From a bacterium (GTDB lineage Bacteria > Actinomycetota > Thermoleophilia > Miltoncostaeales > Miltoncostaeaceae), in the NCBI GenBank assembly GCA_029977205.1, contig JAPOLI010000013.1, forward strand, positions 1-42,844: DNA of 42,844 nt. The letters are read 5' to 3'. Under the pieces are notes generated by a model. That model was not told the origin of the DNA. It was given only the letters and a program-made list of their open reading frames with translations, and made no database searches. Numbering within the stretch: position 1 is the first letter of the stretch; every line of letters begins with the position of its first letter. Positions 31,456 to 42,844 of this stretch are shown in pieces. The position numbers and the translations under genes were made by a program.

Positions 31456-31632
31456 GGGCGCGTCGCCGACACGGCATACCGACCGAAGATCACGGGGGCG
31501 CGCGATGCGCGCCTTGAACCAGGGGGAGACCCCGACCCGCGTGAGGACGGAGCCACAGGGAGCATGCGGGGCACGACGCCCCGCGCGCCTCCTCCCGGCC
31601 CGCCCCGCGTGGCCAGAGGAGGAGGTGAGGAA
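31456..31632 (+). promoter_or_regulatory. rplJ leader with Shine-Dalgarno-sequestering hairpin (L10-leader-like)
   Basis: This 177-nt stretch between rplA and rplJ holds a 7-bp hairpin (GCGGGGC with GCCCCGC, about 31568-31583). It also holds an anti-Shine-Dalgarno tract CCTCCTC (31588-31594), which can pair in two registers with the purine run that includes the rplJ ribosome-binding site (GAGGAGG at 31616-31622 or 31619-31625). L10 leaders that bind the L10-L12 complex are known at this position. I infer translational autoregulation; the protein-binding kink-turn was not identified. Confidence 0.6.
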
Positions 31633-32463
31633 CTGAACAGGGAGCAGAAGGCAGAGGCCATCGCGATGATCGCGGAGCGCCTCACCACCACTGACACCGT
31701 CATCGCGACGGCGTTCCACGGCCTGAGCGTGCGAGAGGTCGAGGAGCTGCGCGGGAAGCTCCGCGAGGCTGACGGCCAGTTCCAGGTCGTGAAGAACACG
31801 CTGGCCCGTCGCGCATGTGACGAGACCGGCCGGGATGCCCTCCTGGAGTACCTCGAGGGGCAGACCGCGCTGGTCTGGGCCGCCGGCGACCCGGCCGCGA
31901 TCGCGAAGGCGCTGAACACGTTCGCCAAGGCGACCGAGAACCGCCTCGCGATGAAGGGCGGGATCCTCGACGGCGCCCCGGTATCGGCCGACGAGCTCAA
32001 GAAGCTCGCCGCGCTGCCGCCGCGCGATGAGCTGCTCGCCCGCCTCGTAGGCGGCGTGGCCAGCCCGCTGCAGGGCACCGTCAACGCCCTGAACAGCATG
32101 CTGTCGGGCCTTGCCGTTGCCCTGGGCCAGTACCACGCCCAGCGTGCGGCCGAGGCACCGGCTGAGGAGGCACCTGCCGCAGAGGCAGAGGCCCCGGCAG
32201 CCGACGGTGCCCCCGCGGAGGATGTCCCGGCAGAGGACGCATCGTCCGCCGAGGCCGAGGCCCCTGCGTCGGAGGCGACTCCGGCTGAGGAGGCACCTGC
32301 CGCGGACGCGGACGCCGCGCCAGGCGCCGACACCACTGATGACACCACTGAGGCCGAGCCTGAGGCAGCGGCCGATGACACCCCGGAGGCCGTGCAGGAG
32401 CCGGCAGCCGACGACAACGCGGACGCCGAGCCGGCTGCCGACGAGACCACAGAAGGAGACTGA
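31633..32463 (+). CDS. rplJ: 50S ribosomal protein L10 with long acidic C-terminal tail; probable CTG start
   Basis: L10 anchors L7/L12 dimers to the ribosome. The protein core (about 1-172) begins (M)[16 protein letters not shown], as in other L10 proteins, and includes [14 protein letters not shown] and [11 protein letters not shown] chose the CTG at 31633 because a near-perfect Shine-Dalgarno GGAGGTGA (31621-31628) lies at ideal distance and the family N terminus begins exactly there. The upstream in-frame ATG (31564) would translate the leader into 23 Pro/Arg/Gly residues. Residues 173-276 form a tail of almost only Ala, Glu, Asp, Pro and Thr, with no Lys or Arg after its start. L10 is usually 165-180 residues, so the tail is about 100 extra. 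Confidence 0.93.
32158..32303 (+). repeat. 23-bp direct repeat within the rplJ acidic tail
   Basis: Bases 32158-32180 and 32281-32303 are identical over 23 bp and lie 123 bp (41 codons) apart in the same frame. They suggest the tail grew by in-frame duplication or slippage. Confidence 0.85.
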
Positions 32464-32465
32464 CC

Positions 32466-32858
32466 ATGGCGATGACCACCGAGGAGTGGATCGACGAGCT
32501 CAAGGCCATTTCGGTCCTCGAGCTGAGCGAGCGCATCAAGGCGCTCGAGGAGACCTTCGGCGTGAGCGCCGCGGCGGCACCGGTGGCGGTGGCCGCTGCG
32601 CCGGCCGCAGGCGGCGGTGGGGGCGAGGGCGGCGGCGACGCCGACCAGGACTCATTCACCGTGACGCTGGACGCCGCGGGCGACAAGAAGATCCAGGTGA
32701 TCAAGGTCGTGCGCGCCGTTACCGGACTCGGCCTCAAGGAGGCCAAGGACCTCGTCGACGGCGCCCCGGGCACCGTCAAGGAGGGCGTGGCCAAGGATGA
32801 GGCCGAGCAGATCAAGTCGCAGCTCGAGGAGGCCGGCGGCAGCGTCTCGCTGTCGTAG
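32466..32858 (+). CDS. rplL: 50S ribosomal protein L7/L12
   Basis: A 130-residue stalk protein that recruits translation factors. The N-terminal dimerisation domain ([24 protein letters not shown]) is followed by an Ala/Gly hinge (about 35-58) and the C-terminal domain ([24 protein letters not shown]). It starts 2 nt after rplJ with GGAG about 8 nt upstream. A strong terminator follows. Confidence 0.97.
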
Positions 32859-32905
32859 GACCCCCATGGGTTCCGCGCGCGCGCATCGCTGATGCACGTG
32901 CCGAG

Positions 32906-32944
32906 CGGCCCGGGTGGCTCTGTGCCACCCGGGCCGTTTGCTTT
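32906..32944 (+). terminator. Intrinsic terminator of the rplKAJL operon
   Basis: A perfect 13-bp G+C-rich stem (32906-32918 with 32924-32936) with loop TCTGT is followed by TTTGCTTT. The next gene's ATG is only 20 bases past the stem, so it may also act as an attenuator. Confidence 0.85.
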
Positions 32945-32956
32945 GCTGGACTTGGA

Positions 32957-34423
32957 ATGGTCCGCCTCCTCATCGCACTATCCGGCGCCGCCTGCGCGGT
33001 TGCCGCGGTGTCACCCGCCGTGGGCGTGGTGTCCCAGGGAGCGTTCCGCGTGGGCGCGGACGCCGCGTGGGCGCGCGACATCACGGGCGCGGGCACGCGC
33101 GTCGCGGTACTCGACCAGAGCTTCGGCGGACTTGCCGAATCGATCGCGGAGGGTGAGCTCCCGCCGCGTGATCAGATGCAGACCATCTCGTTCGATCCCG
33201 AGTACGGCCTCGATGGGCGGGACAGCCTGGGCGCGGTCGGGGAGCACGGGACCCGCATGGCGGAGATCGTGCACGACGTCGCGCCCGGCGCGCAGCTCGT
33301 GCTGGTGAATTACGAGGGGATCGAGGGGTTCCAGCAGGCCGCCGCGTGGATCGCGGCCAACGGAATACCCGTGGTGAGCCACTCCAACTCGTTCCTCGGA
33401 GGATCCTTCGACGGTGCCGGTGTGGCCGCCCGTACGGTGGATGCGCTCACGGCCCAGGGCGTGCTGTGGATCAACTCGGCCGGCAACTTCGCCCAGCGGC
33501 ACTGGCGAGGGGTTCCATCGCCTGCGGGCACCGAGATACCCATCGCCCCCGCCGCGGGCGAGACCATCCTCGTCGGGTTCGGGTGGAGCGATCCCGCTCT
33601 GACGGCGACCCTCAGCGTGCAGCGCCAGCAGGCCGACGGGTCCTGGGTGCAGGTCGCCGCCGCGGATGCCACCCGCATGACGTCGCCGGTGCCCGTGGAC
33701 GGAGGTGCGTGGCGCCTCGTCGTCACGCGCACGGGCGGGCCCGAGGCCGCGGTGGACGTGTTCTCCCGTACCGTCGAGTTCGGCGTGCTCGCCGTGCCGG
33801 ACGGCAGCATCGCGACGCCCGGGGACGCCGCGGGTGCGCTGTCGGTGGGCTCCGTGCGCTGGCAGCGGAGTGTTGTCGCCCCCTACTCATCGCGCGGCCC
33901 CACCGTGGATGGGCGACGGAAGCCCGACATCGTCGGCCCGGCCTATGTCACTGCCAATGCGCGCTTCCCGGGCACTGCGGGCACCTCGGCGGCCACTGCC
34001 CATGTCGCAGGGGTGGCCGCGTTGATACGCGATGAGCGCGCCGTGCGCGGGCAGCCGATCGACGTCTGGGCCCTCCGCGCGGACATCCTCTCCCGCGCGC
34101 AGGATCTCGGCACGCGCGGCCCCGACACGGAGACCGGATTCGGCATGGCGCGCTTCGACGTGGTGCGTCCGCGTGTCCGCGTCACGGCGACTCCGGGCCC
34201 GTCCTCCACCGTGCGCGTGCGCGCGTTCGACACGGGCACGGTGCGGTCCGTGGCGCTCACGTTGAATGGACGGCGGGTCCGCACGGCCAAGGGGCCGGCG
34301 ATGCGCCAGCGGGTGTGGTTGCGCACGGGTCGCAACCGGCTGCGCGTGGAGGTGACTGACATCGCCGGGAATACCGCGGTGGTGAACCGCGTGATGGTGC
34401 GCCGGGACCGGTCGCGACGATGA
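32957..34423 (+). CDS. Secreted subtilisin-like serine protease (S8), no prodomain
   Basis: A 488-residue exported protease. The signal peptide is at about 1-27. The S8 catalytic residues are all present: D53 in VAVLDQSFGG, H97 in EHGTRMAEIV, oxyanion N177 in INSAGN and S344 in GTSAATAHVAG. A beta-rich insert of about 120 residues (185-300) separates Asn from Ser. The C-terminal Ig-like module ends with RVEVTDIAGNTAVV. No I9-type propeptide fits between signal peptide and catalytic domain. It overlaps the next protease gene by 4 nt and lies 20 nt after the rplL terminator, with no room for a normal promoter downstream of it. The start ATG has only a weak GGA as ribosome-binding site. Confidence 0.88.
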   Translation: MVRLLIALSGAACAVAAVSPAVGVVSQGAFRVGADAAWARDITGAGTRVAVLDQSFGGLAESIAEGELPPRDQMQTISFDPEYGLDGRDSLGAVGEHGTRMAEIVHDVAPGAQLVLVNYEGIEGFQQAAAWIAANGIPVVSHSNSFLGGSFDGAGVAARTVDALTAQGVLWINSAGNFAQRHWRGVPSPAGTEIPIAPAAGETILVGFGWSDPALTATLSVQRQQADGSWVQVAAADATRMTSPVPVDGGAWRLVVTRTGGPEAAVDVFSRTVEFGVLAVPDGSIATPGDAAGALSVGSVRWQRSVVAPYSSRGPTVDGRRKPDIVGPAYVTANARFPGTAGTSAATAHVAGVAALIRDERAVRGQPIDVWALRADILSRAQDLGTRGPDTETGFGMARFDVVRPRVRVTATPGPSSTVRVRAFDTGTVRSVALTLNGRRVRTAKGPAMRQRVWLRTGRNRLRVEVTDIAGNTAVVNRVMVRRDRSRR

Positions 34424-36561
34424 GGGTGGCGCTCACCTGCGCCGGCATCGCCGCCGTCATGGCGGCACTGCCGCTGGCTCCCTCCACCGGTGCGCCGGCT
34501 CCCACCGGGGTCGTTCCGATCACGATCACGGCGAGGCCGGGTCAGACCGACGCCGTGGCGCGCGGGCTCGGCACATCGGGCCTGCGCGTGGTGCGCCGTC
34601 ACGGCCGCGAGCTGCAGGTCATCGCATCCCCCGATCGCATCCCGGCGATCCGCGGCCTGCCGGGCGTCGCGGCAGCGAGATCGGCACCGGGTGGCAATGG
34701 CGAAGGTGATCCGGGCTCCCTCGGCCCGGCCGTGAAGACCCGCGCGCCCGTTCGCTCGGAGGGCTTCGAGCGCGTCGGGGCGGACGCCCTGCAGTCCCTC
34801 GCCCGGGATGGCAGGGGCGTGACGATCGCCGTGCTCGACCTGGGCTTCGGGACCACGGGGATTCCTGCGATGCAGGCCCGGCGTGAACTGCCGCCCACCG
34901 CCCGCCTCGAGACACGGTCGTTCGATGCCGTCTGGGGCCTGGCTGGGCGCAATGCCTATGGGAACACCACCAACCACGGCGAACTCGTGGCGCAGACCGT
35001 GTACGACTACGCGCCAGCCGCGCGCTACGTGTTCGTGAACTACCACACGGAGCAGGACTTCCAGGCCGCCGTCGACTGGCTCATCCAGCGTCGCCCCGAC
35101 GTCGTGGTGCACAGCAACAGCTTCCTCGAGGGGCCATTCGACGGCACCGGACCTGCGGCCCAGGCCGTTGATCGTGCCGCTGACGCCGGGATCGCCTGGG
35201 TCAACTCGGCCGGGAACTACGGTGATCGGCACTGGGAGGGCGAGTGGGCCGATGCCGACAAGGACGACGTCCTCGACTGGCCCACCACTCCCGGCTGGAC
35301 GTTCACGGTGGCGCCGGGCAAGCCCATCACCTTCGCGCTCAGTTGGGATCAGGCTGAGGGCGCGGAGGAGTCGGACCTCGACCTCGTGCTCGAGAAGCGC
35401 ACTGCCGGAGGGGGATGGGGTGAGGTCGCGGCCTCGCGTGACTCGCAGGTCGACGGCGCACGACCGGCCGAACGGATGACGGGGGTCCCGTCCGGCGACG
35501 GAGGTGAGTTCCGCCTGCGGGTGGTGCACGCCGCGGGACCGGAGCCCTCGGGCCGCCTCACCCTGTTCTCGCGCGAGGTCACCATGAAGGAACTCGGCGA
35601 CCCCGGCCCGGGCAGCATCCCCACCCCCGGGGATGCCGACGGCTCGATCACGGTCGGCGCCGTGGCCTGGTCCACCAATTCGCTCCGCGCGTACTCGTCA
35701 CGTGGGCCCACGGATGACGGGCGCATGAAGCCCGACATCGTCGCGCCGACCAACACGAGCGTGCGGAGGGGCACGAGTCGGCGCGCGGTGGGTGGTACAT
35801 CCATCTCGGCGCCGAACGCCGCAGGGGCGATCGCGCTCATCATCGGATCGCGCCGTCGCCTGGGCACGCCGATCGACCTGGCGGGCCTCGGGGACCTGCT
35901 CGCCACCGACGCCCTCGACCTGGGCCCGGCGGGGCCGGACGACATGTTCGGTGCAGGACGGGTGCGCGTTGACGTCGACCCTCCGCAGATCTTCCTGACC
36001 GCCCGCATCCCGCGTGTGGTCTCATCGCTCCCGGTCCGCGTCAAGGGGCGGATCGAGGACGCATCGCGCCTCGCGCTCTGGACCATCGACATCGACGGCC
36101 GCCGGGCCATGCTCAAGCACGGCACGACGCCCCTCTCCGTTGCGCTGGGCCGACGCCGGCTTCGCGACGGCCGCCGTACCCTCGTGGTGCGGGCCAAGGA
36201 CTGGGCGGGCAACACGTCGTCTCGCCGGGTGCGGGTGCTGGTCGATACCCGGGCGCCCCGGATCCGGTTGTTCCGCGTTGAGCGCGTCGGGTCGGGCACG
36301 GCCCGTCGCGCGGCGGGTGGCTCCGTGCGCCCCGCCCGCGCGGTGCTCGTCGCCCAGGACGTCAGCGCGTCGGTGCTCCGGATCGCCGTCGTCGCGGCGG
36401 ACGGGAGCGAGGTGCGGCGCAGGGTGCGGTTCCGGGGGACCGCGCGGCGACGGATACCGCTCGGGGCCCTCGCCGCCGGGCGCTACACGGTGACCATCAC
36501 CGCGTCCGACGCGGCGGGTCATGAACGCATCACCACTCGCACGGTGCGAATCAGGCCGTGA
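34420..36561 (+). CDS. Secreted subtilisin-like serine protease (S8) with prodomain-like segment and Ig-like repeats
   Basis: A 713-residue exported paralogue of the preceding gene. The signal peptide is at about 1-25. An I9-like propeptide region (about 31-90, VVPITITARPGQTDAVARGL to PAIRGLPGVAAARS) precedes the catalytic domain with D140 (IAVLDLGFG), H186 (NHGELVAQTV), N266 (NSAGN) and S461 (GTSISAPNAAG). A beta-sandwich insert (about 280-400) sits between Asn and Ser. Two Ig-like modules follow (about 540-713), each with a D-x-A-G-(N/H) turn: DWAGNTSSRR and DAAGHERITT. The start ATG lies in the stop of the upstream gene (ATGA). Confidence 0.9.
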   Translation: MRVALTCAGIAAVMAALPLAPSTGAPAPTGVVPITITARPGQTDAVARGLGTSGLRVVRRHGRELQVIASPDRIPAIRGLPGVAAARSAPGGNGEGDPGSLGPAVKTRAPVRSEGFERVGADALQSLARDGRGVTIAVLDLGFGTTGIPAMQARRELPPTARLETRSFDAVWGLAGRNAYGNTTNHGELVAQTVYDYAPAARYVFVNYHTEQDFQAAVDWLIQRRPDVVVHSNSFLEGPFDGTGPAAQAVDRAADAGIAWVNSAGNYGDRHWEGEWADADKDDVLDWPTTPGWTFTVAPGKPITFALSWDQAEGAEESDLDLVLEKRTAGGGWGEVAASRDSQVDGARPAERMTGVPSGDGGEFRLRVVHAAGPEPSGRLTLFSREVTMKELGDPGPGSIPTPGDADGSITVGAVAWSTNSLRAYSSRGPTDDGRMKPDIVAPTNTSVRRGTSRRAVGGTSISAPNAAGAIALIIGSRRRLGTPIDLAGLGDLLATDALDLGPAGPDDMFGAGRVRVDVDPPQIFLTARIPRVVSSLPVRVKGRIEDASRLALWTIDIDGRRAMLKHGTTPLSVALGRRRLRDGRRTLVVRAKDWAGNTSSRRVRVLVDTRAPRIRLFRVERVGSGTARRAAGGSVRPARAVLVAQDVSASVLRIAVVAADGSEVRRRVRFRGTARRRIPLGALAAGRYTVTITASDAAGHERITTRTVRIRP

Positions 36562-36661: not shown

Positions 36662-36895
36662 ATGCCGCTTGACCGCGAAGTGAAGAGCAAGCTGAGGGAC
36701 CGGGTGTCCCTCGCCAACAAGTCGAACGTGGAGGAGGTCGCCGCCGAGGTCGACGCCGCACGGGCGACCCTTCCCGAGGACGACAAGGACTACGCGCGCC
36801 TTACCGGATGGCTCGAGGACCTGGAGCACGTCGCCGGGGGCAAGGTAATCGGGCGCACCGGCGACCCGGGCGCCCAGCCGGACGGCATGGGCTGA
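36662..36895 (+). CDS. Small charged helical protein of unknown function
   Basis: A 77-residue acidic, Lys/Glu/Asp-rich protein predicted to be helical (residues 4-60), with a Gly-rich end. I recognise no family. I chose the ATG at 36662 with GAGG 7 nt before it; the in-frame ATG at 36521 lies inside the protease gene and gives a Pro/Arg-rich extension. The preceding 100 bases hold an A/T-rich patch (around 36592-36604) that could be a promoter. A 10-bp hairpin follows. Confidence 0.55.
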   Translation: MPLDREVKSKLRDRVSLANKSNVEEVAAEVDAARATLPEDDKDYARLTGWLEDLEHVAGGKVIGRTGDPGAQPDGMG

Positions 36896-36910: not shown

Positions 36911-36942
36911 GGCCCGCCGGAGCGTCCTACGACCGGCGGGCC
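36911..36942. terminator. Hairpin between convergent small genes
   Basis: A perfect 10-bp stem (36911-36920 with 36933-36942) around a 12-nt loop that contains the stop codon of the minus-strand gene (36927-36929). It could end both convergent genes, although it has no U tract. Confidence 0.5.
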
Positions 36943-37430
36943 CGCGACGTCCTGCCGGCGATGAGGCGCTGAAGGCGCCGCGTCTCGGCCAGCGCATTCA
37001 CCTGCCTGCGGTCCGCCGCGCTCCAGTGCCCGCGGCGCAGGCGCTCCTCACGCCCCTCCCGGGCCTCAACCCACCGCTCGTAGCCGTGGATCAGGCTGTT
37101 TATCGAGTCGGTCAGCTGGATGGCCGAGGGCGTTGCCCGGAACGGGCCGTCATCGAGGGTGAGACCGGCGCGTGGACTCCAGCCGAGCTCGCCGGATCCG
37201 TCGTCTGCGACGACCCGGAGGTCGTCGGGTCCGACGCGCACCTGGGTGTCCTGCCACTCGCGCTTGAGCACCCCCGGCTCCACGGCCGGCCGGAAGCCGA
37301 ACGCGCGCAGGCGTCGTCGCTCCTGCGCCGTCGACCACACCTGATGGGTTGAGTCGAGGAGGGGCACGAGGCGCTCGGTGATCGCCGCTGTGCGATCATC
37401 GTCGGTCAGTGCGGAGGCATCGTCTGCCAC
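36927..37430 (-). CDS. Protein of unknown function divergent from rpoB
   Basis: A 167-residue protein, Arg/Glu/Asp-rich, probably soluble. It has N-terminal helices (DRTAAITERLVPLLDSTHQVW), a central strand region (VRVGPDDLRVVADDG then LGWSPRAGLTLDDG) and a C-terminal Arg-rich helix (RLQRLIAGRTSRARRS) that could bind nucleic acid. I recognise no family. I chose the GTG at 37430 rather than an upstream ATG at 37550, because the latter would run through the rpoB promoter and leader. CATACT lies 6 nt before the GTG. Confidence 0.55.
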   Translation of the reverse strand: MADDASALTDDDRTAAITERLVPLLDSTHQVWSTAQERRRLRAFGFRPAVEPGVLKREWQDTQVRVGPDDLRVVADDGSGELGWSPRAGLTLDDGPFRATPSAIQLTDSINSLIHGYERWVEAREGREERLRRGHWSAADRRQVNALAETRRLQRLIAGRTSRARRS

Positions 37431-37493
37431 GTCGTGAGTATGGCGAGCGTTCCGGGCGCGCGCCGTATCCGGGGCATGCAGGGGATGAATGTG

Positions 37494-37499
37494 TATGAT
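37494..37499 (+). promoter_or_regulatory. Promoter -10 (TATGAT) for rpoBC
   Basis: TATGAT lies 173 nt before the rpoB TTG, with no clear -35 hexamer. The same hexamer precedes rplK, fitting coordinated ribosomal and polymerase genes. The leader includes a hairpin (AATGCC, 37531-37536, with GGCATT, 37546-37551). Confidence 0.55.
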
Positions 37500-37672
37500 G
37501 GCCGTTCCGCCGTCGCCGCCCCTTGCGCCCAATGCCCGGCGCGGCGGCATTCGGTGGTCGCGTACGACGTGCCCGAACCGCTGCCCGCCAACATACTCCG
37601 CGTCTTCGCGCCAGCGGCGCCCGCTGCCGCCTGCCCATACATCACCGAGCTCACGTCAGGAGGCTCTGCGAC

Positions 37673-42844
<5,172 letters not shown>

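Follow-up and report, generated by a model that had tools for sequence, protein, structure and literature searches.

Overlapping subtilase genes in the Miltoncostaeaceae, of which only the second encodes a prodomain

A stretch of 42,844 nucleotides (positions 1 to 42,844 of contig JAPOLI010000013.1) from a member of the Miltoncostaeaceae (Thermoleophilia), hereafter called the window, carries two overlapping genes for subtilases of the S8 family (S1 and S2, Table 1), of which only the second encodes a prodomain. Comparison with 42 genomes of the family and 24 relatives from the same class outside the family indicates that this architecture is conserved, that the prodomain was lost from S1, and that both the gene overlap and a short motif ahead of S1 have been maintained. 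We consider it plausible that the prodomain of S2 helps S1 in trans. This reading has precedents and falls somewhat short of an even chance; that S1 folds independently is not much less probable.

S1 and S2 match the Pfam model Peptidase_S8 (PF00082) with 82.3 and 79.6 bits, respectively, against a cut-off of 21.8, and are 41% identical over 424 aligned columns. The catalytic triads are Asp53, His97, and Ser344 in S1 and Asp140, His186, and Ser461 in S2, and the oxyanion residues are Asn177 and Asn266, all positions being assigned by motif and alignment, not from coordinates. All four residues are the same in every one of the 26 aligned S1 rows and the 23 aligned S2 rows. The S1 alignment (A2) leaves out G014, G005, G029, and G019, and the hand-chosen S2 alignment (A1) leaves out G012, G018, G030, G004, and the rows truncated at the N-terminus. 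Purifying selection acts on both genes, with pN/pS ratios (nonsynonymous to synonymous differences) of 0.10‒0.53 in 10 genome pairs. Judging from the signal-peptide-like starts and the conserved residues, both enzymes would be exported and catalytically active.

The structures of both proteins were predicted with AlphaFold2, the input alignments holding 32 and 37 sequences and the mean predicted local distance difference test (pLDDT) scores being 85.0 for S2 and 89.7 for S1, respectively. In the S1 model, a signal-peptide-like helix is followed directly by the catalytic domain. In the S2 model, a prodomain precedes the catalytic domain, with predicted β-strands at residues 32‒38, 57‒61, 64‒69, and 83‒88 and helices at residues 43‒52 and 71‒78 (local pLDDT 67‒86). 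The resulting β-α-β-β-α-β order is that of the subtilisin prodomain and the hallmark of the I9 family. Pro-subtilisin E (3whi) aligns with residues 30‒519 of the S2 model (root-mean-square deviation 7.1, 315 residues), and the Pfam I9 model gave no match to S2 up to an E value of 1. The linker between the prodomain and the enzyme (residues 90‒111) is modelled with low confidence. A β-rich insert lies between the oxyanion Asn and the catalytic Ser in each protein (about residues 182‒270 in S1 and 272‒386 in S2), the Asn–Ser spacing being 167 in S1 and 195 in S2. The protease domain is followed by one immunoglobulin (Ig)-like domain in S1 (about residues 405‒482) and by two in S2 (about residues 523‒711). 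Foldseek searches with the whole models rank CspB, CspA, and CspC first for both proteins. The VIA structure lists rank plain subtilisins highest for both (Z of about 32‒34.5), and no Csp entry appears among their 50 rows, which are filled by subtilisin entries.

An earlier sequence-only reading of the window had described S1 and S2 as paralogous S8 proteases with complete triads, S1 as running from its signal peptide straight into the catalytic domain, each protein as having a β-rich insert between the oxyanion Asn and the catalytic Ser, and only S2 as having a propeptide-like region. The Pfam matches, the sequence identity, the invariant residues, and the two models agree with this description, and the asymmetry of the prodomain extends over the family. 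All 30 family sequences of S1 examined (29 relatives and the window) lack a prodomain, which is present in 28 of the 29 S2 sequences with a readable N-terminus, including that of the window. A hidden prodomain in S1 was also considered; the upstream frames of the 29 relatives were read, and nothing resembling one was found. The S1 matches of G032 and G024 seemed to extend into the S2 prodomain and were rejected, as no prodomain was seen in their upstream frames.

The history of this asymmetry was examined with a maximum-likelihood tree built by the quick method for 70 rows, from which rows shorter than 350 residues had been dropped and in which leading residues had been trimmed from S2_G030, S2_G018, S1_G014, and the f6 rows. 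S1 (29 rows) and S2 (30 rows) each form one side of a branch, with a support of 99 for each in the SH-like approximate likelihood-ratio test (SH-aLRT), and together they lie apart from all outgroups; the eight outgroup rows do not form one side of a branch. As judged by eye, a stretch resembling a prodomain lies ahead of the catalytic domain in the outgroup proteases that were inspected. Since these relatives have a prodomain and fall outside the two sister clades of S1 and S2, S1 has lost its own. The comparison of sequences thus places the duplication no later than the base of the Miltoncostaeaceae, with a subsequent loss of the prodomain in S1.

The S1 profile matched 35 of the 42 family genomes at a threshold of 1e-30. 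Both genes were found in 29 genomes, S2 or a part of it alone in five (G002, G015, G023, G035, and G065), and S1 alone in three (G005, G016, and G029), in each of which a contig ends inside or just after S1. Possession of S1 without S2 was demonstrated for none of the 42 family genomes. Five genomes have neither gene (G020, G031, G061, G062, and G026), and the absence is real in G020, G031, and G026, since their rplL–rpoB interval is present and without the pair. The lack of S1 in G023 is uninformative because this assembly has no rplL or rpoB matches. The tandem pair was seen in none of the 24 class relatives outside the family. Single distant homologs outside the family occur in G041, G051, and G056, and the region taken around each of them contains no ribosomal-cluster match. 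This repeated occurrence of the arrangement within the family shows that it is not due to chance.

S2 starts within the end of S1 in all 25 adjacent pairs. The overlap is exactly 4 nt in 23 of them (ATGA or GTGA) and 22 nt in the other two, and the same ATGA is visible in G016, outside these 25, whose contig ends just inside S2. Ahead of S1, the motif TGNTTNNNT is located 7‒10 nt before an in-frame start codon at 25 of 27 S1 loci, the misses being G025 and G034. In shuffled upstream stretches it reached a mean of 0.78 and a maximum of 5 of the 27. The relatedness of the genomes inflates these counts, and the motif still holds across most genera. The motif is absent from the 60 nt before adjacent S2 genes (0 of 17). 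When S2 is not adjacent to S1 (G021, G032, G024, G035, and G023), TGNTTNNNT is found 8‒10 nt before an in-frame start in four of the five genes; in G023 it is present without a matching in-frame start. We consider the gain of TGNTTNNNT upon separation to be the best evidence for its function as a promoter and for the reliance of an adjacent S2 on the S1 message. Because this −10-like element lies so near the start codon, the message would be leaderless, and TGNTTNNNT before S1 is probably a leaderless promoter. A sigma-70 scan found no site here; its consensus does not cover TGNTTNNNT.

A stem-loop with a T-rich tail after rplL is the likely terminator of the ribosomal operon. The predicted fold of positions 32870‒32960 has an energy of −57.4 kcal/mol (z = −5.6 relative to shuffled sequences), and a like stem is visible in many relatives of the genus; the stem-loop is not among the calls of a terminator scan. 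Readthrough from the ribosomal operon as the sole source of expression was set aside. A separate promoter fits better, since the stem-loop follows rplL and TGNTTNNNT persists in G036 and G027, in which S1 is far from rplL. The sequence-only reading had further suggested that the pair may work as one unit. The conserved overlap and the missing motif before adjacent S2 genes make the pair look built for co-expression, and to this extent the suggestion stands. An obligatory genetic unit, however, is refuted, since S2 lies apart from S1 in one clade (G021, G032, and G024), and both genes are kept there.

These features can be joined in one explanation, which we favour tentatively and which, taken as a whole, is nearly but not quite as probable as its negation. 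A secreted, prodomain-bearing S8 protease with a β-rich insert was duplicated in tandem no later than the base of the family, after which S1 lost its prodomain. S1 would be transcribed from its own leaderless-type promoter directly after the rplL terminator, and S2, without a promoter of its own, would be translated from the S1 message by coupling through the overlap. Outside the membrane, the S2 prodomain, either freed or still attached, may help S1 to fold and restrain S1 until released. The coupling would thereby supply S1 with its helper. The loss of the S1 prodomain, the constant company of S2, the coupling, and the precedents argue for help in trans. The more specific picture, in which an active secreted protease is folded by the prodomain of a second active paralog from the same message, the helper having become shared after the duplication, one copy having dropped its own, and the coupling having been kept over the age of the family, is possible and rather doubtful.

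Co-variation among the genomes also bears on this question. In 22 genomes, after correction for ribosomal proteins and S2, the distances between prodomains track those between S1 catalytic domains (partial r = 0.32, reached in 6 of 1000 permutations), and the value for the prodomain with the catalytic domain of S2 itself is −0.28. The P3 control gives −0.08 with S1 (20 genomes). An earlier estimate, with the S2 catalytic domain as the sole control, was 0.51 (0 of 2000 permutations) and fell to 0.32 with a ribosomal-protein clock and squared terms. Since the permutations do not allow for the tree, the co-variation is suggestive only.

Several observations weigh against help in trans. The co-variation is not concentrated on the face of S1 expected to contact the prodomain (0.19, compared with 0.30 for the rest), it loses significance in a set of 10 genomes with one to three per genus (0.21, reached in 164 of 1000 permutations), and other domain pairs give similar values, such as the Ig-like domains of S2 with the insert of S1 (0.30). 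The equivalent of subtilisin Glu112 is Ala130 in the S1 of the window, although this position is acidic in 20 of 26 S1 rows. In G012 (L046:11301-11700), the prodomain of S2 is cleanly deleted, with no remnant in other frames, so that neither protease has one, and both triads and the overlap are nevertheless kept. In the clade of G021, G032, and G024, S2 is found on another contig and S1 stays near rplL or rpoB. Furthermore, the prodomain of CspB, which restores folding in trans, is described in the available part of that study as highly specific for its own enzyme (PMC3567191), while S1 and S2 are only 41% identical.

Alternatively, S1 may need no prodomain for its folding, its insert and Ig-like domain providing the stability, and the two enzymes, differing in specificity, may simply be made together for a common task outside the cell. 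We regard this as a serious alternative that is nonetheless on the unlikely side. It agrees with G012, in which both genes are retained and neither encodes a prodomain, with the persistence of S1 without an adjacent S2 in one clade, and with the jellyroll insert of CspB, which rigidifies that enzyme according to the part of the study at hand (PMC3567191). S1 is also modelled confidently without a prodomain, a result that is silent on folding kinetics. However, independent folding of S1 leaves unexplained why coupling is strict over many genera and why no genome could be shown to have S1 without S2, and a survey, in the portion available, gives the Aeromonas sobria protease ASP as the exception to propeptide-assisted folding.

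The presence of the overlap in 25 of 25 adjacent pairs also fits a stable hetero-oligomer of S1 and S2 as the working unit, the coupling then setting their ratio. Such an assembly would be analogous to that of CspC and CspA, which heterodimerise as far as the accessible text reports (PMC12880746), and Csp proteins are the best Foldseek matches of both S1 and S2. The separate loci in one clade speak against this assembly, which we consider improbable. In a two-step secreted cascade, S1, free of any folding problem, would cleave the prodomain linker of S2 as its activator, or the reverse. The low-confidence linker of S2 could be such a cleavage site, and S1 has nothing to be removed before it is active; S2, however, might mature by self-cleavage, since its triad is complete, and a cascade seems very unlikely. 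Help from the S2 prodomain in trans remains the reading we prefer.

As identified with Pfam, rplJ (31564-32463) and rplL lie upstream of the pair and rpoB lies downstream. The position between rplL and rpoB and the 4-nt overlap proposed for the two S8 genes by the sequence-only reading are confirmed by their open reading frames (ORFs; Table 1). The view of the pair as an insertion between these two genes holds for its position and needs qualification, as the pair is not directly against rpoB and two conserved ORFs intervene, a 77-residue ORF and a minus-strand ORF, for neither of which a Pfam match was found. In G020, G031, and G026, the rplL–rpoB interval holds these two ORFs without the pair. 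Nor is the site itself notable, as had been thought. Of the 24 relatives from the class but not the family, 21 allowed the distance between the rplL and rpoB matches to be measured, and it is at most 450 nt in 12 and more than 700 nt in 9 of these 21. In two of the others the genes lie on separate contigs, and the third has neither match. The site was therefore rejected as meaningful, since the gap is often interrupted in the class and two other conserved ORFs occur there with or without the pair. The location of the pair is incidental and carries little meaning.

Table 1 Features of the window at and around the subtilase pair.
Feature	Positions	Strand	Evidence
rplL (ribosomal protein L7/L12), upstream neighbour	32466..32858	+	Pfam PF00542, 105.4 bits; PF16320, 74.4 bits
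GC-rich stem-loop (17 bp) and T-rich tail downstream of rplL, likely ribosomal-operon terminator	32902..32940	+	RNA fold
TGCTTTGCT, similar to an extended −10 element; probable leaderless promoter for S1 and S2	32939..32947	+	Motif conservation
S1, S8 protease, 488 residues, signal-peptide-like start, without prodomain	32957..34423	+	
ATGA, S2 start codon overlapping the S1 stop codon, 4 nt	34420..34423	+	Read from the sequence
S2, S8 protease, 713 residues, signal-peptide-like start and prodomain	34420..36561	+	
S2 prodomain, residues 32‒88, predicted β-α-β-β-α-β	34513..34683	+	AlphaFold2 secondary structure; 3whi alignment
Conserved 77-residue ORF, outside the pair	36662..36895	+	Occurs in G020, G031, and G026, which lack the pair
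Conserved ORF before rpoB, outside the pair	36927..37550	-	
rpoB, downstream neighbour, start codon provisional	37703..41458	+	Pfam RNA_pol_Rpb2 domains

Other observations concern the surrounding ribosomal genes. In G036 (L071) and G027 (L068), 6.1 and 9.6 kb, respectively, separate rplL from S1, and S1, S2, the small ORF, the minus-strand ORF, and rpoB remain together. The rplJ product, L10, has a long acidic C-terminal tail rich in Ala, Pro, Glu, and Asp; the tail is similar in the four genus relatives that were read and in L098, and five other relatives that were read stop about 60 residues past the L10 core. Two contigs titled as a Bifidobacterium breve metagenome-assembled genome (L082 and L085) bear Miltoncostaeaceae-like ribosomal clusters, and these titles look wrong.

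S8 proteases, Csp-like inserts, and external folding helpers are already known. The unusual feature here is the loss of the prodomain in a coupled paralog, which is real and conserved. No published description of such a pair was found in titles or abstract openings on Miltoncostaeaceae, in-trans propeptides, or tandem subtilases. As a rule, secreted subtilases carry their folding helper in cis, the accessible portion of the survey naming ASP as the exception. A coupled pair occurring throughout a family therefore offers a natural test of whether two enzymes can share their dependence on a prodomain and of how such dependence disappears, with G012, in which the second prodomain is also gone, and the clade with separated genes as built-in controls.

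S2 resembles the pro-subtilisins (subtilisin E, BPN', and Tk-subtilisin) in the topology of its prodomain, and both S1 and S2 share their catalytic fold. In pro-subtilisins, however, the prodomain acts in cis on one chain, and there is no partner protease. KP-43 and SubHal, alkaline proteases of Bacillus, are the best matches of the S2 profile in the PDB, and their C-terminal part, a β-barrel, gives a weak alignment with the insert of S2 (11.7 and 8.2 bits). That part follows the catalytic domain in these proteases, whereas in S2 it lies between the Asn and the Ser.

The Csp proteins are germination proteases of clostridial spores, with a part in cleaving the cortex hydrolase. As far as the available parts of the two studies describe them, they consist of several paralogs with an S8 domain interrupted by a jellyroll insert, and the CspB prodomain is active in trans (PMC3567191, PMC12880746). 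The insert of S1 and S2, compared at the level of whole models, is at the corresponding place and β-rich in both. In contrast to S1, the Csp proteins described there have prodomains, and the signal-peptide-like starts and Ig-like domains belong to S1 and S2. The NCBIfam Csp models also score far below their cut-offs, CspBA with 26.5 bits for S1 and 27.0 bits for S2 against 1250 and CspC with 25.2 bits for S2 against 675. In genetic arrangement the pair is similar to ASP, a secreted S8 protease that the survey, in the portion available, counts as one of two subtilases without a propeptide in its set. According to the accessible text, ASP requires ORF2, a chaperone protein encoded just downstream (PMC5638518). 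ASP is kexin-like (PMC5638518 and the survey), and kexins carry a P-domain (PMC3567191), as stated in the parts of these papers at hand; no P-domain family is among the Pfam matches of S1 up to an E value of 1. Whereas the helper of ASP is a chaperone, the partner of S1 is itself a protease, a paralog that has a triad too and on which S1 is proposed to depend.

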